A stretch of DNA of 43,628 nt from Rhodoferax sp. (GTDB taxonomy: Bacteria; Pseudomonadota; Gammaproteobacteria; Burkholderiales; Burkholderiaceae_C), in contig JAIPCE010000006.1 in the NCBI GenBank assembly GCA_021738345.1, positions 1-43,628 on the forward strand, read 5' to 3'. Of this stretch, positions 1,904-12,703 are shown in pieces (position 1 is the stretch's first letter; each line of letters starts with the position of its first letter). Below the pieces are notes generated by a model. That model did not search any database and had not been told where the DNA came from. It worked only from the letters and a program-made list of their open reading frames with translations. A program made the translations under genes and the position numbers.

Positions 1904-2434
1904 TCAGGCCATCAGGGCCGTTTTCATTTGTTCCAGACGGGCTTTGACAGAGGTGTCAAGGACTTCGTCACCCACCACCACGCGAATGCCACCAATCAGC
2001 TCGGGCAACAATTCGACGGATACATTGAGTTTGCGGGCAAACCGTTTTTCAAGCGTCAATGCCAGATCGTCCAGGGCTGCACCATCGATGGCAAAGGCGC
2101 TGTAGACCACCGCATCCGAAGAGCCGCTCTGCGCATTTTTCAGGGCGCGAAATTGCTTGGCGATTTCAGTGAAGGCGCTCAAACGCCCGTTATCGATCAG
2201 GGTGCGCAGGAAGTTTTGGGCCAACGCCGGCAAAGCCGCTTGGTTCACTGCGGTGATCAGCTCAAATACCTGTGCGTTGGTGACATTGGGGTTGTCGGCG
2301 AGCTGCAGCACTTGCGGGTCGCCTGCAATCGCTTGCAAGCCATCCACCCACTGCGCTGCAGCATTCAAGTCCGCGGCAGTAGCCTTGAACAAGGCCTCGG
2401 CGTAAGGTCGGGCAATGGTGGCAAGTTCGGCCAT
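1904..2434 (-). CDS. atpH: ATP synthase F1 subunit delta
   Basis: 176 aa, [20 protein letters not shown]-terminus; operon position. Confidence 0.97.
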
Positions 2435-2444
2435 GTTTGTCCTC

Positions 2445-2915
2445 TTACAGCTCGGTCTTCAGCCGACCCAGCAGATCAGCGTGGACGGAGGCAGTGACTT
2501 CCCGGTGAAGGATTTGCTCTGCACCCTTGACCGCTAGCACGGCTACTTGCTCACGCAAGGCCTCACGTGCCCGCACGGTTTGCTGATCGGCCTCCACTTT
2601 AGCAGCAGCAATGATCTTGTTGCCCTCCTCGGTGGCTTTGGCCTTGGCCTCTTCGACGATGGCCTGTCCGCGACGCTCGGCATCGGCTAAGCGCGCGGCG
2701 GTCTCGGTGCGCGACTTGGCAATCTCGGCTTCGATCCGCTTATTAGCGGATGAAAGCTCAGACTTAGCCTTGTCGGCAGCCGATAGGCCGTCGGCAATTT
2801 TGCTGGCGCGCTCGTCCAACGCAGCTGCGATGGGCGGCCACACGAACTTCATCGTGAACAGCACCAGCAATGCGAAGACGATAGCTTGCGCTACCAGAGT
2901 TCCATTAATGCTCAC
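2445..2915 (-). CDS. atpF: ATP synthase Fo subunit b
   Basis: 156 aa; N-terminal TM segment followed by charged helix; operon position. Confidence 0.97.
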
Positions 2916-2951
2916 AGTAAGTCTCCTTCAACACGGTGTTGCAGGAAAGGC

Positions 2952-3224
<273 letters not shown>

Positions 3225-3286
3225 CTAAATGAACTAAAAAAACAAAACCAAAACCAAAACCAAACCGAAAACCCCAAACCGCAGCA

Positions 3287-4171
3287 TCAATGCGCGTCGT
3301 GCGCCTGCCCGATGTAAACCAAGGTCAACATCATGAACACAAAAGCCTGCAGCAAAATAATGATAATGTGAAACACCGCCCACGCCCAGCCCGCCACCAC
3401 ATGCAGCAGCAGCAGCGCCAGACTTCCGGGCTCTGCAGAAAATGCCCAAGAACCACCCAGCAAAGCAATCAGCATAAACACCAGCTCGCCCGCATACATA
3501 TTGCCAAACAGCCGCATGCCATGCGAAACCGTTTTGGCGGTAAAGGAGATCAACTGCTCAGCCACGTTGACAACGCCCAAAATAATTGCGAACACCGGAT
3601 TTTTGCTGGTACCAAAGGGTGCCGAAACCAGTTCGTGTGCCCAGCCGCCCAGGCCCTTGATCTTGATATTGTAAAAAAGGCAAATGAACAGCACTGACAC
3701 CGACAAGCCCATGGTGATCGACAAATCGGCCGTTGGCACCACGCGCAAATACGCATGGCTAGGGTCATGACCCGCAGCACCGTAGATTGCCTCCCAGATG
3801 GAGGGCAGCAGATCCAGCGGCAACAGGTCCATGGCGTTGAGCAGGAAAATCCAGACAAACACCGTGAGTGCCAGCGGTGCGACCAGTTTGCGGCTGTTGG
3901 CGTTATGAACGATGGACTTGGCCTGACCATCGACCATTTCCATCAAAATTTCGACGGCTGCCTGAAAGCGGCCCGGAACACCTGCGGTAGCGCGGCTGGC
4001 AGCCTTCCACAGAAAGAAACTGCCCAGCAAACCCAGGGTGATCGAGAAAAACAGCGAGTCAATATTGAAGACCGAAAAGTCGACAATTTCGGTCTGGGTT
4101 TTGTTTTGCAAATGGGTCAGGTGGTGAACGATGTAGTCACTGGCGGACGGCGCGTGTGCTTCTGCAGACAT
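3287..4171 (-). CDS. atpB: ATP synthase Fo subunit a
   Basis: 294 aa; multi-TM; GMRLFGNMYAGELVF motif. Confidence 0.98.
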   Translation of the reverse strand: MSAEAHAPSASDYIVHHLTHLQNKTQTEIVDFSVFNIDSLFFSITLGLLGSFFLWKAASRATAGVPGRFQAAVEILMEMVDGQAKSIVHNANSRKLVAPLALTVFVWIFLLNAMDLLPLDLLPSIWEAIYGAAGHDPSHAYLRVVPTADLSITMGLSVSVLFICLFYNIKIKGLGGWAHELVSAPFGTSKNPVFAIILGVVNVAEQLISFTAKTVSHGMRLFGNMYAGELVFMLIALLGGSWAFSAEPGSLALLLLHVVAGWAWAVFHIIIILLQAFVFMMLTLVYIGQAHDAH

Positions 4172-4173
4172 GG

Positions 4174-4662
4174 TTAACTCTTATTCATCTGTTTTAATTT
4201 TGGACGCATTAACAGCGCCACCCAATAAACCTTCATGGTAAGCACCAGACCCAGCAACATTGCCAACCAGTCCAGTGCATCCACTACCCTTGGTGCTGCA
4301 AAAAGCATCGCAACACTAACAGCAATTTTTGCTGCTTCCCACACAAAAAATCCAAAACCAGCTGTCATCGCATTGATGGACGAAAATTGGCTCATCAAAC
4401 CGCGTGCAAACAAACAGGCTGGCAATACAACTGCCAGCGCACCGTAGGCCGTTGACCAAGCCACCGCAGCATTGCGGGTGAAAACCCAGGCCAACAACGT
4501 GACTAGCAATCCGACCACCACCTGCAGCCTAATAACCCGCCAAGGCGAAACCGGCGGTTGCAGCGCGCGCAACGCTTGTGCTTCTTGCCGGGTAAGCCGC
4601 TTAAACGCTGCCGCGTCAAAATCATCAGCGTCAAAGTCATTCAGCGGCGCAATTATCGGCAT
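4174..4662 (-). CDS. atpI: ATP synthase subunit I
   Basis: 162 aa multi-TM protein immediately upstream of atpB. Confidence 0.85.
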   Translation of the reverse strand: MPIIAPLNDFDADDFDAAAFKRLTRQEAQALRALQPPVSPWRVIRLQVVVGLLVTLLAWVFTRNAAVAWSTAYGALAVVLPACLFARGLMSQFSSINAMTAGFGFFVWEAAKIAVSVAMLFAAPRVVDALDWLAMLLGLVLTMKVYWVALLMRPKLKQMNKS

Positions 4663-4721
4663 CTCACATTACACAAGGTTTACACGTGCACCGCAGCGCG
4701 CCACACGTTACAAAGCCTACG

Positions 4722-4750
4722 ATTATAAGTAAAAAGCGATGGATTTCGCC
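4722..4750 (-). promoter_or_regulatory. Candidate promoter of the atp operon (-10 TATAAT)
   Basis: Reverse strand has a perfect TATAAT at 4727-4722; the -35 position (GGCGAA, 17-nt spacing) is weak. Confidence 0.45.
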
Positions 4751-4794
4751 CCAAAGTGGGGATAATTAGATGTCTTAACCAAGGAGTGCGCGCT

Positions 4795-5215
4795 TTCACC
4801 CCTGATACCACCCAGGTTTTTCATCGGTATTTACAGCGTACTCTGCCGGTGGCGGTGAGCGGTCAAGGGGTCGACCTTAAAGGCGCTTCCGGCAAAAAAT
4901 ACATCGATGCATCGGGCGGTGCGGCGGTCTTGCCTGGGACATGGACACCCCGCCGTACTGGCTGCCAACCACGTCGCGCCGTGCTACCCCTACCGCGAAC
5001 AAACCTCCAATGAACCCTTCGGAGCAGTACGGCCAACGCCAGGCGCTGGAGCCCGAGCAAGCCATACTTGCCAAGGGGTGCGGAAATAGCTCAGGTACCG
5101 TTTATGGTGGTGCCGGCGTATGGGTGCCCGTACCCGGCTATTTCAGGGCAGTCAGGGCAGTGCGTGAACTCTGCGAGCGCTATGGCGGGCTCCTTATGTC
5201 GCTGACCGGCTAAGC
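4795..5215 (+). pseudogene. Decayed class III (PLP) aminotransferase relic
   Basis: N-terminal-like TQVFHRYLQRTLPVAVSGQGVDLKGASGKKYIDASGGAAV in one frame, SCLGHGHPAVLAAN in the next, then VPVPGYFRAVRAVRELCERYGGLL from the middle of the same family; rest missing. Confidence 0.75.
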
Positions 5216-5313
5216 CTGGCAATAGCTGCGGTGTAACAGTACGCCCCAGGCAAACGGGGCGAGTTGAAGTTCGGTAAACTGGGCGTTTCGGGGACACCCA
5301 CAGGGGGATAACA

Positions 5314-8300
5314 ATGGCACAGCAACCCAGATATCCAACAGCTTCAGGCGCACTACGGCAGCACGCCAAGTTGCCTGCACCCAGCCCATCGCCCATTCTG
5401 AACGGGCCGTACTCCGAGCCCTTGTTTCACTACGCTACGGCGCATGACGGCTCGCTGGACTACGACGCGCGCTGCACGGGCCGGCGCATTTTTTCGCCGC
5501 AGACTCCGCAGGTACCGCTGGGCCAGCAGGCACAGACCAGCCTGCACGACATCAACGACTTTGCCGCCCAGTTCCGCGACGAGCTGGTCAATCTGCTGCG
5601 CGAGCAAGTAGGTCGCTGGCGCGCGCAGGCCTACCCGGACGTGACGAGCCGCGTCACCCGTGACCTGCTGCAGCATTGGTTTCTGAACCCGGAACGTCCC
5701 GCCTGGAAAAAACTCTTTTTTGCCCAGCAAGAGGCCGTCGAGACCGCCATCTGGCTCAACGAAGTGGCGCACCGCTCCAACGCCGGCACCCATGTGCTCA
5801 ACCGCTTGCGCCTTGCCAATGAAAGCGTCGAAGACCCGGCCAGCGTGCTGCCGCGCATCGCCTCCAAAATGGCCACCGGCACCGGCAAGACCGTGGTCAT
5901 GGCCTGCCTACTGCTCTACCACTACCTCAACCGCAACCAGTACCGCAACGACCCGCGCTATGCCGACTATTTCTTGATCGTCGCCCCGGGCATTACCATC
6001 CGGGACCGTTTGCAGGTGCTGCGCGTCGACACCCAAGCACAGCGCGACGCCGATGCCACCGACTACTACCGCGAGCGCTGGTTAGTGCCTGCCGCCTATG
6101 CCAGCCATCTGGCGGGACTCAACGCCCGCCTGGTCATCACCAACTTCCATGCCTTCGAGCCGCGCCTGATTGGCGGCAACAAACGCAGCCCGCTCGACGG
6201 CAAAATCGGCATTGACGGGCGTAAGGTCGAGGCCCGTGAAGACATGGGCCAGATGCTCAAGCGCGTGCTGGGGCCTTTCAAACCCGGGCGGCGGCTGCTG
6301 GTGATTAACGACGAAGCGCACCATTGCTACCTGCCGCGCGCCAAAGGCAAAGACACCGAAGAAGAAAGCAGCGCCACCGAAAACGAGCGTGCCGCGGTCT
6401 GGTTCAGTGGTCTGCGCGAGATTGCCCGACGCTGGCAGCTCAATGCGGTGCACGACCTGTCGGCCACGCCCTACTATTTGTCGGGCTCGGGCTGGCCTGC
6501 GTATTCGTATTTTCCCTGGGTGGTGTCGGACTTTGGCCTGATCGAGGCGATAGAAGCCGGTCTGGTCAAAATACCGTTTCTGCCGGTGGACGACAGCTCG
6601 CAGGAGCTCACCGAGCCCACGCTGCGCAACCTCTATGAGCACTGCAAGGCGGGTCTGCCACGCAAGGGCCAGCGCACCCAGCGCAAAGACGACAAAGCGG
6701 CCAAGGCGAACGCTGCCGACCAGGGCGAAAAAAGCGCAGTTGCGCCGGAACGTCCGCCCGAACTCCCCGCCTTGCTCAAAAATGCACTGGTCCAGTTTTA
6801 CGGGCACTACACCGACTACGAGCGCGGGCTACGGGGCTTGGGCGAGCGCGGCAAAGATCTGCTGACCTCGCCACCGGTATTTATTGTGGTGTGCTCCAAC
6901 ACCATGGTCTCTAAAGAGGTTTACAAACATATTGCTGGCTACGAGACGACCGACGCGGCCGGGCAGCCGTATGCGGTCGAGGGGCTGCTGCCGCAGTTTT
7001 CCAACTTCGCGCCGGTCACCCGTGCCCGCCTGCGCAAGCCCCCCACGCTGCTGATCGACTCCGACGCGCTGGAAAACTCGGGCCAGGTCAGCGACGACTT
7101 CAAGCGCGTGTTTGGCCCCGAGATTGAAGCCTTCAAGCGCGACTACCGCACCAGCCACCCCGACAAATCGGTCGAGGCCTTGACCGATGGTGACTTGCTG
7201 CGCGAGGTGGTCAATACCGTGGGCCGCCCGGGCAAGCTCGGCGAGCACATTCGCTGTGTCGTCAGTGTGGGCATGCTGACCGAGGGCTGGGACGCCAATA
7301 CCGTCACCCACATCGTGGGCGTGCGCGCCTTTGGCTCTCAACTGCTGTGTGAGCAGGTCGCCGGGCGCGCGCTGCGCCGCCGGCAGTATTTTCTGGACCC
7401 CAAAACCGGCCTGTTCCCGCCCGAATACGCCCACATCATTGGCGTGCCGTTCAAGTTCTTTAAAGGCGGCAGCAGCGAGCTGCCGCAAACACAAGACATA
7501 CGGCAAATTCGTGCCCTGCCCGAGCGCGCTGGTCTGGCCCTGGAATTTCCCAAACTGGTGGGGTACAAGATCAGCCACACCGGCGACCGCGTGCGTGCCG
7601 ACTTCAGCGCCACGCCGCGCTACCTGGTGAACATGGCCCATAACCCGGTGCAAACCACCCTGGGCACCGCCTTTTCTGCCCAGGAGCAAGAGCTGCGCAC
7701 CGACATTGATGCCCTGCGCGACCAGGAAGTGGTCTATTGGGTCGCCAAAGAAGTCATGTCGCGCTACTTCCGCGACGAGGCAAGCCGCCCCGAGCTGGAA
7801 AAATTTGCCGACATCCGCCAGATAGCCCAAACTTGGTATGACCAACAGGTGGATGTCATTGGCGAGACCGATCCCCGCTTGCGGCGCCTGCTGCGCCTAG
7901 ACGATGCCACCGCCGTGGCCACCGCCGTCTACCGTGGCATTGAAGCCGCGGCACTGGTGGCGCGCGCGCCCACCGAAGAGGCTGCGGCTAGCCCCGCCAC
8001 CCGCATCCTGCCCCTGTACAACCGCTACAACCCCACCGGCAGCAGCGCGCAGGTGCACGGTGCCACCGTCAAACCGGTGTACCCCACGCGCAAGAGCCAC
8101 GTGAATTTTGTCGTGGCCGACACCGACAGTTGGGAGCAAATCGCCGCCAAAACCTTTGAGCAGCTCGATGCCGTGCAAAGCTATGTCAAAAACGCCTTCC
8201 TGGGCTTTGCGATTCCTTATGTTGACACCCAGGGAGTCGAGCGGGCGTACTTGCCGGACTTTATTTGCCGTGTCAAAACGCCAGACGGCGAGCTGTTCAA

Positions 8301-8742
8301 CCTGATCGTCGAAATCACCGGGTTCAACAAAGACAAGGCGCTTAAACGCTACTTCACCACCGAACGCTGGTTGCCCGCAGTGAATGGCCAGCTCACCCAG
8401 CCCGGCGCACTACGCTGGTATTTTGTCGAAATTACCGACATAGAGCGCATCAAAAACACCCTGGGCGAAGCCGTTGAGCGCATTAGCACCGAAGTGGATG
8501 AAAAAATAAACCAGACTGGGTGGGGCGTGGCCAAGTTGATCGACCAAATACCAGAGGACATCTTTGCGGATGGCCGCCATGACAACGCGGCACAGGAAAT
8601 CCGCCCGCCAGACACAGACGAGCAAACCGAGCGCGAATTCTGGCTGCGAGCCCAGTCCTCCACACTGTCCAGCGTCTGGGGTGACAACGACGACCAACTC
8701 TTTAAAGGGGTGCCGCGCGATGAAGCCGCGCAGCGCTACTAA
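5314..8742 (+). CDS. Type III-like restriction endonuclease subunit (DEAD/DEAH helicase-nuclease, BPTD_3080-like)
   Basis: 1142 aa; Walker A MATGTGKT, DEAH box NDEAHHC, helicase motif GRALRRRQY, C-terminal LPDFICRVKTPDGELFNLIVEITG nuclease-like segment. Confidence 0.88.
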   Translation: MAQQPRYPTASGALRQHAKLPAPSPSPILNGPYSEPLFHYATAHDGSLDYDARCTGRRIFSPQTPQVPLGQQAQTSLHDINDFAAQFRDELVNLLREQVGRWRAQAYPDVTSRVTRDLLQHWFLNPERPAWKKLFFAQQEAVETAIWLNEVAHRSNAGTHVLNRLRLANESVEDPASVLPRIASKMATGTGKTVVMACLLLYHYLNRNQYRNDPRYADYFLIVAPGITIRDRLQVLRVDTQAQRDADATDYYRERWLVPAAYASHLAGLNARLVITNFHAFEPRLIGGNKRSPLDGKIGIDGRKVEAREDMGQMLKRVLGPFKPGRRLLVINDEAHHCYLPRAKGKDTEEESSATENERAAVWFSGLREIARRWQLNAVHDLSATPYYLSGSGWPAYSYFPWVVSDFGLIEAIEAGLVKIPFLPVDDSSQELTEPTLRNLYEHCKAGLPRKGQRTQRKDDKAAKANAADQGEKSAVAPERPPELPALLKNALVQFYGHYTDYERGLRGLGERGKDLLTSPPVFIVVCSNTMVSKEVYKHIAGYETTDAAGQPYAVEGLLPQFSNFAPVTRARLRKPPTLLIDSDALENSGQVSDDFKRVFGPEIEAFKRDYRTSHPDKSVEALTDGDLLREVVNTVGRPGKLGEHIRCVVSVGMLTEGWDANTVTHIVGVRAFGSQLLCEQVAGRALRRRQYFLDPKTGLFPPEYAHIIGVPFKFFKGGSSELPQTQDIRQIRALPERAGLALEFPKLVGYKISHTGDRVRADFSATPRYLVNMAHNPVQTTLGTAFSAQEQELRTDIDALRDQEVVYWVAKEVMSRYFRDEASRPELEKFADIRQIAQTWYDQQVDVIGETDPRLRRLLRLDDATAVATAVYRGIEAAALVARAPTEEAAASPATRILPLYNRYNPTGSSAQVHGATVKPVYPTRKSHVNFVVADTDSWEQIAAKTFEQLDAVQSYVKNAFLGFAIPYVDTQGVERAYLPDFICRVKTPDGELFNLIVEITGFNKDKALKRYFTTERWLPAVNGQLTQPGALRWYFVEITDIERIKNTLGEAVERISTEVDEKINQTGWGVAKLIDQIPEDIFADGRHDNAAQEIRPPDTDEQTEREFWLRAQSSTLSSVWGDNDDQLFKGVPRDEAAQRY

Positions 8743-8899
8743 GCTTGGACGGTAGCTAGGGCATTTTGGGAGACTAAGGTGTGCAATCTGTAACGTTCTT
8801 TTCCAGCGTCCAGCGGTGGCCTTGCGGATTTCGTTAGACTTAGTACTCGCTGGGCACAAGAGAATCGCCGAGTTCCAGCATCGACTCCACAGTAAAATT

Positions 8900-9772
8900 A
8901 TGCCAAATCACCCGCTAGCTGAAGTCTTCGGACATTCCACAACTGATTTCTCGGATCGCGCTCAGCGATTTAGGAGAAATAAGCTTTGTCCTTTCAACAA
9001 CAAAGTGCCAAGTTGCACCAAAGATAAAGCGAAAGATCCATTGGGGGTATGCAGTGTTTATCACGGACAATCCGCTGTGATTACCTGCCCCGTAAGGTTC
9101 CGAGAAGACTGGCTTATTGCTGATGATGCTGCAGCATTTTTCTTTCCAGATGGGTCAATGTGGACTTCATTGACCGAAGTCAGACTGGCGGACAGCGAGG
9201 GGAAATCCGCTGGCAACATTGATGTTGTATTGGTGGCATACAACAAGGCTGGCAAAGTAATTGATTTTGGTTCACTAGAAGTTCAGGCTGTTTACATTTC
9301 AGGTAATGTTCGTGACCCGTTTGCCCATTATATGGAAAATTGTGCAGCGCACCAAGATATGAATTGGAGAAGTGAGCCGAATTATCCACGGCCTGATTTT
9401 TTGTCATCCTCACGAAAACGCCTCGCACCACAATTGATGTTCAAGGGTGGCATACTAAATGCATGGGGAAAGAAGATGTCCGTTGCTCTTGATTCTCCAT
9501 TTTTCAACACATTGCCGAAATTGAAGGAAGTTTCTAAAGAAGACGCGAATGTGGCTTGGCTTGTTTATGATCTTGTACCTGATAAATATGGAAGCTTGAG
9601 GATAACCAAGTCAAGGACTGTGTACACGGAATTTTCTGAGGCATTGAACACCATTACACGACCCAAAGTGGGAAAAGTGGACGATTTTCTTAAAATTCTG
9701 CAGGCAAAAGTTGATGAGAAGTTAGAGTCACCACCAATAAATCAAACGGTAGATAACCCTTTCAGCGTATGA
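8900..9772 (+). CDS. Putative NotI-family type II restriction endonuclease
   Basis: ATG at 8900 (MPNHPLAEVFGH) is more likely than the GTG at 8816. Four-Cys cluster CPF..SC.K....GVCSV..CP, and D...ExQ core (GNIDVVLV ... DFGSLEVQAVYISG) as in NotI. Confidence 0.75.
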   Translation: MPNHPLAEVFGHSTTDFSDRAQRFRRNKLCPFNNKVPSCTKDKAKDPLGVCSVYHGQSAVITCPVRFREDWLIADDAAAFFFPDGSMWTSLTEVRLADSEGKSAGNIDVVLVAYNKAGKVIDFGSLEVQAVYISGNVRDPFAHYMENCAAHQDMNWRSEPNYPRPDFLSSSRKRLAPQLMFKGGILNAWGKKMSVALDSPFFNTLPKLKEVSKEDANVAWLVYDLVPDKYGSLRITKSRTVYTEFSEALNTITRPKVGKVDDFLKILQAKVDEKLESPPINQTVDNPFSV

Positions 9773-10716
9773 CGCAGGTACAAAGAGACTTCTTTGGTCT
9801 TGATTCACCGGGGAATGTTCGTCCGGTCAACGTGGCTTCCGTCCCGCAACGTAGCCCCTTCAGATATCCTGGTGGCAAGACTTGGTTTATACCTAGGCTG
9901 AGAGAATGGCTTAGGCATCAGTACCCTAAACCTAAACGATTGATTGAGCCTTTCGCGGGTGGTGGCATCGTTTCCTTGACCGCCGCCTTTGAGAATCTGG
10001 TTGAATGTGTTTTGATGGTTGAGTTGGATGATGAAATTTCTGCCGTTTGGGATACGATTATTTCTGGAAAGGGTGCGTGGTTAGCCAATCGCATCTTATA
10101 CTTTGAAATGTCAAAAGAGAATGCGGTTAATGAGATTACTAGATGCCCCCAAGACCGCAAAGAAAAAGCCTTCCAGACTATAATTAAAAATAGAACTTTT
10201 CATGGCGGCATTCTTGCTGCCGGTTCAGGATTTTTAAAGAATGGAGAGGCAGGAAAAGGAATTTTATCAAGATGGTATCCAGCGACGCTTGCCAAGCGGA
10301 TAACCGATATTAATCATGTTTTACCAAAATTGCAGTTTCAGCAAGATGATGCTTTTGCTACACTTGATCAATACAAGAACGATGTAAGTACTGTTTTTTT
10401 TGTAGACCCTCCTTACACAGCGGGTGGAAAAAATGCAGGCAATCGGTTATATACACATTTCAAGATCGATCATGACATGCTTTTCCAGAAATGTTCTGAA
10501 TTGGCAGGTGACTTCATCATGACTTACGATAACTCCGATGAGGTAAGGAGCCTTGCATGTAAGTATTCGCTCCAAGCAAAGCCGATTCCAATGAAAAATA
10601 CTCATCACGCAGAAATGACGGAATTAGTTATCGGACGAGATTTGTCTTGGATGGATGGTACTGAAAGAGTTTGCGAGCCCTCTACTGAATATCAAATGAA
10701 TAAGCCTGACGATTAG
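9769..10716 (+). CDS. D12-class N6-adenine DNA methyltransferase (Dam-like)
   Basis: 315 aa; SPFRYPGGKTWFIPRLREW SAM motif, EPFAGGG, and DPPY (FFVDPPYTAGGKN). Overlaps previous gene by ATGA. Confidence 0.92.
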   Translation: MTQVQRDFFGLDSPGNVRPVNVASVPQRSPFRYPGGKTWFIPRLREWLRHQYPKPKRLIEPFAGGGIVSLTAAFENLVECVLMVELDDEISAVWDTIISGKGAWLANRILYFEMSKENAVNEITRCPQDRKEKAFQTIIKNRTFHGGILAAGSGFLKNGEAGKGILSRWYPATLAKRITDINHVLPKLQFQQDDAFATLDQYKNDVSTVFFVDPPYTAGGKNAGNRLYTHFKIDHDMLFQKCSELAGDFIMTYDNSDEVRSLACKYSLQAKPIPMKNTHHAEMTELVIGRDLSWMDGTERVCEPSTEYQMNKPDD

Positions 10717-10800
10717 GGTTAGATCGTGCGAAGCGACAATCTGCACCGTTTGTTGGACGAAGCCGCTTCGCGGAGTCAAGGCATCCAGCAAGGTGGTGTC

Positions 10801-11933
10801 TGTGACGAATTAACCTACCCTCCTCAGTTGACCGCCTCCCTTGGTACACCCTGGCCGATACCGCAGGGGGCGACATTCGCCATGGCTTTGTCTACAAGAC
10901 CGTGCCACACGTCACCCTTAAAAGTCTGGCCAACGACGAGCCACCCGATACCGAGACGCTGTTTGACCAGCCTGAGCAGGACAAAAAGCGAATGCGCGTC
11001 ACCGGCCCCTTTACCGTGGAAACCTTGCAAAGCTTTGAGCCACTGGCCCCCGAGCAACTCGGGGCCGCCAACAGCAATGTGGACAACGTGCAGCGCTTTA
11101 CCGAGCGCATTTTTGAGCACCTGAAAAGCGCGGGCATCAAAAACGGGGCCAAAAACGAAACGGCGGTTTTTAACCGCGTGGACATCATCAACGACCTGGA
11201 CGGCGCGCTGCACGCCGAGGGCTGGTACAAGGCGCAGGCCGACGGCACTGCGACCGAGAGAAAAGCCTATTTGCACATCGGCCCGCAGTTTGGTACGGTC
11301 AGCAAAGCGGCAGTCAATGCCGCCATCAAGGCCTGCCGCCAGCGCGCCGATGCCGATTGGCTGGTGATTCTGGGCTTTGGCTTTGAGAGCGATGTCGACA
11401 ACCGCAGCGTCACGCTCAAAGTCGGCAGCTTTGAGGTCACCAAGGCGCGCATGCACGACGACCTGATGCAAGACGGTCTGATCAAAAAAGACAAAAAAGC
11501 CGCCAGCTTTGTCACCATCGGCGAGCCCGACATTGGCCTCACGCGCCAGGGCAGCACCGTGCAAGTCGAAATCCGGGGTCTGGACATTTACGATCCCGTA
11601 AAGGACGAAGTCAAGGCGCGCAGTGTGGCCGATATTTCGTACTGGATGGTCGACGAAAACTACGACGGCTCCAACTTTGTCGCAAGCCAGGTGTTCTTTT
11701 GCGGCGGTGAGCGCGACCAGTTTGACAAATTTAGGCGCGGCCTGCAGTCGCTGGCCGCTGCCTCGACCAAAAGGGCCGCCGAGCGCACCCTCAAAATAGA
11801 AATCAACGACGAAGCCTTCGAACGCCTCTACGGCTTCGTCTCGCACCCCATCACCGTCGTCCCGGGACAGCGGGTAGCGGTGCGCGTCATCAGTCAGTTT
11901 GGCGAAGAATCGACCAAAGTGCTGACGCTGTAG
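10801..11933 (+). pseudogene. C-terminal remnant of a site-specific DNA methyltransferase (partner of the 5314..8742 helicase); catalytic half absent
   Basis: After an in-frame TGA near 10800 the frame reads [31 protein letters not shown]...[11 protein letters not shown]...[15 protein letters not shown], the typical C-terminal region of these Mod proteins. No DPPY or SAM motif remains. Confidence 0.75.
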
Positions 11934-12084
11934 TCCGGCAGGGACCGGCAAGGCGTGGCGCTTCAATCGGCCGTAAGTCGTTGCGTTGCTGTAGTTGGGG
12001 CTCTGACTCCACTGGATTGCAGCCCCAGACGGGAGATTGTGTAGCACGTGCGCTTTTGCCGCCTCGATCGGCACGGATGGCGAT

Positions 12085-12530
12085 GCGTAGAGTTGGTGTA
12101 GCTTGAGGTCCTGGGTGCCACGAATGTGGACATCTTCCCTGAGCCATTGTTCAGGGTAGTAGAGCTTGGAGACCGGGGTGCATGCGTGTTTGGCTACCAG
12201 GGCGAACAGGGCACGTTCGAGGTCAAAGCCAAACTGACGGGCGCTGGCTTGTTGGCGTACAACAGAGTCGATGTAGAGCTGCTTCCAAACGGCTTCTAGC
12301 ACATAGAGGTCACCGTAGGGCCAAGCACAGATCAGCTGCCAGTCTCCACCGCACGCCACGATCTCTTCGGGAGAGCAGCGCCGCAGGATGTTCTTGACCA
12401 GTCGACGCAGGCGCTCTACCACCTCGGGGTCATTAGCGCGCGTCCACATCTGTGCACGATACGGGCTTGGGATCGGCCTTTGACGCTATCCCAAACGTTC
12501 TCTGCGAGCCATTGGGTATTTTGCGAGATT
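12085..12530 (-). mobile_element. 5' fragment of an IS1634-like transposase, frameshifted and truncated
   Basis: Reverse strand: WLAENVWDSVKGRSQARIVHRCGRA // NDPEVVERLRRLVKNILRRCSPEEIVA...FDLERALFALVAKHACTPVSKLYYPEQWLREDVHI...LKLHQLY; the frame change lies at the GCGCGC stretch near 12438. Confidence 0.65.
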
Positions 12531-12580
12531 GTGCCCGATAGGTGTCAAAGTCGGGCCGCAAGAACACCCCTAACACCCCC

Positions 12581-12703
12581 GATCAGTTGGGGACAGAGCA
12601 AAGTTCGCTTCGCGTAACTCTTGGTCTGTCCCGCAAGAACACCCCTGATCAGTTGGGGACAGAGCAAAGTTCGCTTCGCGTAACTCTTGGTCTGTCCCGC
12701 AAG
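12581..12703. repeat. Tandem direct repeat (66-bp unit, ~2 copies), each copy with a 43-nt imperfect palindrome
   Basis: gatcagttggggacagagcaaagttcgcttcgcgtaactcttggtctgtcccgcaag at 12581 and again at 12647; hairpins 12590-12632 and 12656-12698 (GGGACAGA ... TCTGTCCC). Confidence 0.9.

Follow-up and report, generated by a model that had tools for sequence, protein, structure and literature searches.

The DNA considered here, the window, is a stretch of 43,628 nucleotides from Rhodoferax sp. (GCA_021738345.1, contig JAIPCE010000006.1, positions 1-43,628 of the forward strand), whose genome is a draft of 4.87 Mb in 346 contigs and 91% complete. It contains a restriction-modification (R-M) locus made up of res, which encodes a type III-like helicase-nuclease, an AT-richer cassette with the genes of a NotI-family restriction endonuclease and a D12-class methyltransferase, and only the C-terminal part of a Mod methyltransferase (Table 1). 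This layout had been described in an initial annotation made from the sequence alone, and it is confirmed by profile matches and by the GC content, which is 0.55-0.66 in res, 0.40-0.46 in the cassette and 0.56-0.62 in the Mod remnant. The annotation also rightly saw the cassette as lying across mod. It missed, however, that related operons have a slot for a toxin gene between res and mod, and that Res ends in tails resembling pieces of antitoxins, which are the main subject here.

Table 1. Features of the locus (positions in the window)
Feature	Position	Strand	Remarks
res	5314..8742	+	1142 aa, BPTD_3080-family type III-like helicase-nuclease, open throughout
VapB-like antitoxin C-terminal peptide	8515..8586	+	Res tail residues 1068-1091, TGWGVAKLIDQIPEDIFADGRHDN
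MazE/PemI-like antitoxin C-terminal peptide	8629..8709	+	Res residues 1106-1132, second in tail, EREFWLRAQSSTLSSVWGDNDDQLFKG
Replaced segment	8704..10816		2.11 kb in place of 1.94 kb of L008
Left part of foreign segment	8704..8899		origin unrecognised
NotI-family type II restriction endonuclease	8900..9772	+	PF12183, E 9e-61
D12-class N6-adenine methyltransferase	9769..10716	+	PF02086, E 1.5e-12; ATGA overlap with NotI gene
Right part of foreign segment	10717..10816		origin unrecognised
Mod C-terminal remnant	10817..11933	+	from about residue 522 of an 885-aa Mod; about 370 aa
IS1634-family transposase N-terminal fragment	11940..12449	-	abuts the remnant; tblastn 35-42% to annotated IS1634 transposases
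66-bp tandem duplication (98%)	12572..12703		right edge, beside DUF1631 gene

The product of res matches NCBIfam NF046055 (restr_BPTD_3080) above cut-off, with an E value of 1e-289 over residues 26-1053, and PF04851 is found in it by profile search. It is the Res subunit, a superfamily 2 (SF2) helicase plus nuclease, of a type III R-M system of the BPTD_3080 type, and it shares 73-76% identity with its closest relatives from intact loci. Elsewhere in the genus, contig 96 of genome G050 (L124, L138) holds a Res pseudogene with an internal TAG.

The intact Mod of locus L005 has DPPY at residue 197, a hypervariable region at 300-450 and DPTCGSG at 484; pairwise identity is about 0.3-0.4 in the hypervariable region versus >0.9 in the flanking motif regions. 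DPPY, the target-recognition region and the S-adenosylmethionine (SAM) motif are all present in intact relatives and all missing from the window. Against PADLOC PDLC03632, a type III Mod profile of 983 positions, the remnant frame at 10902-11933 aligns only with the C-terminal third (660-981, E 2e-31), and the DNA of the remnant is 77-78% identical to L008 and L005. The initial annotation had seen correctly that only a C-terminal part survives, with DPPY and the SAM motif lost; its start at 10801 has to be shifted, since DNA homology to intact mods restarts at 10817-10838. It had also considered that the remnant might be the target-recognition part, which fails because the hypervariable region sits in the lost half, or that it might be translated into a new hybrid complex. 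The latter is unlikely: the reading frame is closed by a TGA at 10803, a 4-bp deletion between 10834 and 10835 follows the junction, and a start scan finds no common start before a GTG at 10902, which has no Shine-Dalgarno-like sequence in front of it. The remnant is probably untranslated. An AlphaFold model of it, with a predicted local distance difference test (pLDDT) of 72.5 and a predicted template modelling score (pTM) of 0.41, weakly resembles restriction-endonuclease-like domains over residues 71-235 (AspBHI, Z 7.9; MspJI, Z 7.2) and FnIII-like domains over residues 235-375, all of these matches falling in the tool's uninformative range.

The missing half is not nearby. As had been stated before, a Mod N-terminus is found neither upstream of res (5314) nor at 8743-8899. 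No second cognate Mod was found in the 91%-complete genome either: the one match to N6_N4_Mtase (PF01555), on contig 30, is unrelated and has its own Res adjacent, and a search of the genome with the Mod remnant found only the remnant itself. Contig 30 (G000, 1959-8416, L145) carries a complete Mod-Res pair of another type, consisting of a 1057-aa Mod and a 1095-aa helicase with a 4-base overlap. Because Mod is the subunit that recognises the DNA site in type III systems, the window Res is probably inert without it.

How the half of mod was lost can be read from the edges. DNA homology to both L008 and L142 stops at 8703, which sets the left edge at 8703/8704; in the alignments with L008 and L135 the lost homology returns at 10817, which sets the right edge at 10816/10817. 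The counterpart in L008, 1.94 kb long, comprises the last res codons, the gene of a PemK-like toxin and the first 522 or so residues of Mod. About 1.94 kb has been exchanged for 2.11 kb; the earlier view that the cassette was inserted into, or recombined across, mod holds as to recombination, with Res left without its modifier, and not as to a clean insertion. One replacement took the place of the toxin and of the catalytic half and target-recognition region of Mod, and brought NotI-D12. Judged by L008, the replaced part would have held the toxin gene and the last res codons as well; Res now reads 12 codons into the foreign segment and then meets a stop. In the loci compared, the stretches 8704-8899 and 10717-10816 show local similarity to relatives of Res or of the cassette no better than that of shuffled sequences, and no convincing repeats that would name the type of recombination flank the cassette.

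Relatives with an uninterrupted res-mod pair, a comparison that had been suggested in the initial annotation, do exist. Eleven relatives fetched with Res at 45-74% identity (L005-L015) all have mod after res, and their Mod is full-length at 880-930 residues; in the about 25 Res loci where mod follows res and the flank is long enough, the N-terminal half of Mod is always present, and the window alone is without it. Its absence is thereby ruled out as a natural variant. A family that naturally has a short, non-catalytic Mod with D12 as constant neighbour, which would have explained the locus differently, is not what these relatives show, and no D12 gene occurs in the intact ones. A short Mod frame in genome G421 was likewise rejected as a natural variant, being due to a contig break. 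At the start of contig 513 of this genome (bases 1-330, L137), an inverted SAM-motif part of a second Mod lies before the Mod C-terminus, and another contig likewise breaks inside mod; this may be an assembly artefact or an invertible mod.

In eleven intact loci a single toxin-like gene occupies the space between res and mod; it is PemK/MazF-like in five (L005, L006, L008, L011 and L163, the last from G421) and PIN/VapC-like in six (L007, L009, L010, L012, L015 and L146). PF02452 is found above cut-off in four tested loci and PF01850 in three; the remaining four toxins match profiles built from these seven, in a profile search that covered all eleven. From the Res stop to the toxin start there are -11 to +10 nt in the 11 loci, and from the toxin stop to the mod start 2-15 nt in 10 of them. 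As res, toxin and mod are packed within a few nucleotides, no antitoxin gene is present in the eleven operons, nor would one fit; there is no room for a classical antitoxin with an N-terminal DNA-binding domain. Directly downstream of res in other Res loci, no further toxin of these profiles was found. The gap holds other cargo in L140, L158, L146, L125, L156, L023 and L014, with genes that by eye were named ORF6N-like, KilA-N-like, DinD-like and AlbA-like ATP-binding, and in L014 a RelE-like toxin, also named by eye. The res-mod gap looks like a cargo slot of type III operons.

The missing antitoxin may be part of Res itself. In these operons, Res ends in a peptide that, judged by sequence comparison, resembles the toxin-binding C-terminus of the matching antitoxin. 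Beside a PIN gene the Res tail reads, for example, ...TIGEALRLLSSLPDDFYIEGREDPP... (L146), and a free VapB beside a related VapC ends ...LRAAFDLLASMPDDFFAEGRQDVPPETRESL (Allochromatium pALVIN02); beside a PemK gene the Res tail reads ...FFMNAQMHSLNSIWDNEEDEIWNDL (L006), and a MazE whose gene adjoins that of a related PemK ends ...LKKEWDTEEEDETWKDL (Methanohalobium). The class of the tail agrees with that of the toxin in 11/11 loci, for which random pairing, before correction for relatedness, gives 1 in 462. Similarity was scored as z against shuffled sequences, with 82 toxin-less Res C-termini as controls. Against free VapB C-termini (the best two of the seven retrieved, of which five belong to other VapB types and were mostly without signal), PIN-linked Res tails reach z values of 5.9-12.8, PemK-linked ones ≤0.9 and the controls ≤3.4. 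Searches with the bare tails, by tblastn against plasmids and by phmmer against the PDB, gave no informative match, the peptides being too short.

In a maximum likelihood tree of the Res core, from which the tail was excluded, the two classes are interleaved: L007, a PIN locus, groups with the PemK loci, and L011, which has PemK, is placed next to three loci with PIN. Given the well-supported branches, PIN must have changed at least 3 times and PemK at least 2 times. Since the classes interleave while tail and toxin still agree, the two have switched together repeatedly, at least twice on the Res tree.

The window Res carries both kinds of tail in tandem. Its peptide 1068-1091 scores z 8.8 against VapB of Allochromatium pALVIN02, and the whole 90-aa tail z 8.0 against VapB C-termini, far from the controls. 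For the MazE-like peptide, comparison with the L163 Res tail gives z 18; in L163 a PemK-like gene directly follows res. In tblastn, alignments of the window Res with PIN-type relatives end at 1084-1106 and those with PemK-type relatives at 1130-1132. A toxin-binding antitoxin C-terminus is thus predicted on the window Res, strongly for the VapB type and more weakly for the MazE type. A type II toxin-antitoxin module (VapBC or PemIK) would also require the toxin; neither a PIN nor a PemK gene is found beside the window res, and the gap 8743-8899 is too short for one.

The cassette is a different matter. In an alignment of five NotI-family members, four Cys plus D108, E127 and Q129 are invariant, so that the endonuclease has the conserved Cys4 and D...E-x-Q residues, which we take to be catalytic. 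In the D12 protein, EPFAGG and DPPYTA, motifs I and IV of the methyltransferase, are invariant in four homologues. In the plasmid collection, NotI has its closest relative (59%) on Thermus brockianus plasmid pTbrSNM4-1c (NZ_AP025595), where an overlapping DNA adenine methylase gene comes after it, 52% identical to D12. In genome G376 a NotI-D12 pair lies between thiolase and short-chain dehydrogenase genes, its NotI gene being split over two frames, with 66% in the best part; a distant pair is found on a small Aeromonas plasmid. A search of phages and viral contigs gave no close NotI relatives, and the NotI-like protein and its profile give no match in the PDB. NotI-D12 is a self-contained type II unit that also occurs alone, and it is probably the working system of the window today. 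The suggestion that D12 supplies the protection once given by Mod is not supported: because the NotI-D12 pair recurs in Thermus brockianus and G376, D12 belongs to NotI and not to Res.

Beyond the remnant, the right edge of the locus bears debris of an insertion sequence (IS) and a tandem duplication (Table 1), whose copies are exactly spaced and whose unit begins AACACCCC(C/T)GATCAGTTGGGGACAGAGC. An empty site flanked by atpI and the DUF1631 gene could not be found, DUF1631 not adjoining atpI in 19 same-genus loci.

What, then, was the function of the tails? An intact Res would hold the neighbouring toxin inactive by means of its C-terminal tail. If the Res-Mod complex were lost, degraded or disabled by a phage, the toxin would be freed and growth would stop. 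In EcoP1/EcoP15, Mod has been proposed to aid the folding of Res and to shield it from proteolysis (PMC3874151); loss of Mod could therefore cost the cell Res too, and so free the toxin. A survivable loss of Mod would need the toxin to be removed as well, with which the window, a single case, is in line. The simplest history would start with a VapB-tailed Res, which later gained the MazE tail together with a pemK gene; the NotI-D12 replacement would then have removed toxin and Mod half in one event. The tandem tails, VapB-like and then MazE-like, we infer to be the fossil of an earlier toxin swap.

We consider it likely that the window is the wreck of a res-toxin-mod operon, in which a Res tail would have restrained the toxin, one replacement removed toxin and part of Mod, and NotI-D12 now works. 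Most likely, Res once doubled as an antitoxin, and the window Res would now be a relic beside a working type II system. With somewhat more reserve, we lean towards a wider proposal: a subfamily of type III R-M systems in which Res may act as an antitoxin, via a swappable VapB- or MazE-derived tail, against a PIN or MazF toxin whose gene lies between the two subunit genes, so that survival would be tied to Res-Mod; the double-tailed, toxin-less Res of the window would be its fossil. Several observations weigh against all this. The MazE similarity is weak: against the one similar MazE C-terminus used as reference, L006 scores z 4.4, L005 3.6 and L011 2.4, with controls at ≤2.2, and L008, L163 and the window are not significant, so that their class rests on homology to the L005/L006 type. 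The intact loci are only 11, mostly from Burkholderiales, and the window junctions are known from a single draft genome. In Res and the Mod C-terminus, compared with relatives, constraint is not visibly relaxed; the nonsynonymous rate (dN) is not raised and is low relative to the synonymous one (dS). The replacement is therefore recent, or some function is still under selection.

A more ordinary decay has to be considered, with a type III R-M operon hit by a selfish type II cassette, and with Res tails that are just variable C-terminal extensions and bind no toxin. The NotI-D12 unit does turn up in unrelated places, IS debris and a tandem duplication adjoin the locus, and several relatives hold other cargo between res and mod without such a Res tail. 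Such extensions, however, should not agree with the toxin class in 11/11 loci and switch with it on the tree, nor should they resemble VapB C-termini far above 82 controls beside toxins that have no other antitoxin in their operon; we regard this explanation as rather unlikely. A new hybrid complex, with Res drawing specificity or protection from the Mod remnant or D12, would fit the open frames of both Res and remnant and their low dN relative to dS. It is very improbable, however, with the target-recognition and SAM regions gone, a remnant without a good start, and a D12 that elsewhere partners NotI and never res in the loci seen. Equally slight is the chance of an assembly chimera, a NotI-D12 stretch misjoined to a res-mod locus: a draft of so many contigs, a junction seen once and the assembly break inside mod of G421 would speak for it, yet all segments lie on one 43.6-kb contig, and the non-homologous transition stretches, the extended Res end and the 4-bp deletion are unlike a repeat-mediated misjoin. 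If the window is indeed the wreck of a res-toxin-mod operon, it would be a rare double-tailed relic and show a route by which such an operon is lost, toxin and Mod going together.

Among known systems, pTbrSNM4-1c has the NotI and D12 genes, 59% and 52% identical, in the same order and with the same overlap; the plasmid pair has an integrase gene next to it, whereas the pair described here sits within a res-mod operon. With BPTD_3080-type type III R-M the locus shares the Res profile match and the order res then mod; the relatives' Mod has DPPY, variable region and SAM motif, whereas the window lacks the catalytic half, and most relatives have neither tail nor toxin. The intact operons share with VapBC and MazEF/PemIK the families of their toxins (PF01850, PF02452) and have C-terminal peptides like those that bind the toxin there; they differ in having no DNA-binding antitoxin protein, the peptide being part of a fusion with a Res of about 1,050 residues. 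The window is a defective example, which meets the definition of neither a complete type III system nor a toxin-antitoxin module. A complete VapBC-type pair lies on Allochromatium vinosum pALVIN02 (L170, NC_013862, 5765-7172) between the genes of a restriction subunit S and a type I restriction endonuclease; it is a possible free-standing counterpart of such coupling.

That R-M can be coupled to a toxin is already known; a Res subunit that appears to bear antitoxin peptides was not found in the open-access literature, to which our search was confined, nor was any paper on a Res-borne antitoxin or under the name BPTD_3080. In PrrC/EcoprrI, a toxin gene inside the R-M locus is silenced by the restriction complex, and the toxin is freed when a phage disables that complex (PMC3506569, PMC2610378). 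The likeness is the toxin inside an R-M locus; the differences are that the R-M system is of type I (Ic) rather than III, that its toxin, PrrC, is an ABC-ATPase anticodon nuclease, and that an antitoxin-derived peptide on an R-M subunit is not described there. PrrC is also the one worked example in the 2012 hypothesis of immunity-suicide coupling, according to which immunity loci hold toxins without antitoxins and immunity proteins act as their reversible inhibitors (PMC3506569). This hypothesis contains no antitoxin element at the sequence level, whereas the Res proteins described here end in antitoxin-like peptides whose class fits the toxin. A Res with a grafted antitoxin peptide that tracks the class of the toxin would be direct sequence evidence for immunity proteins that restrain toxins.

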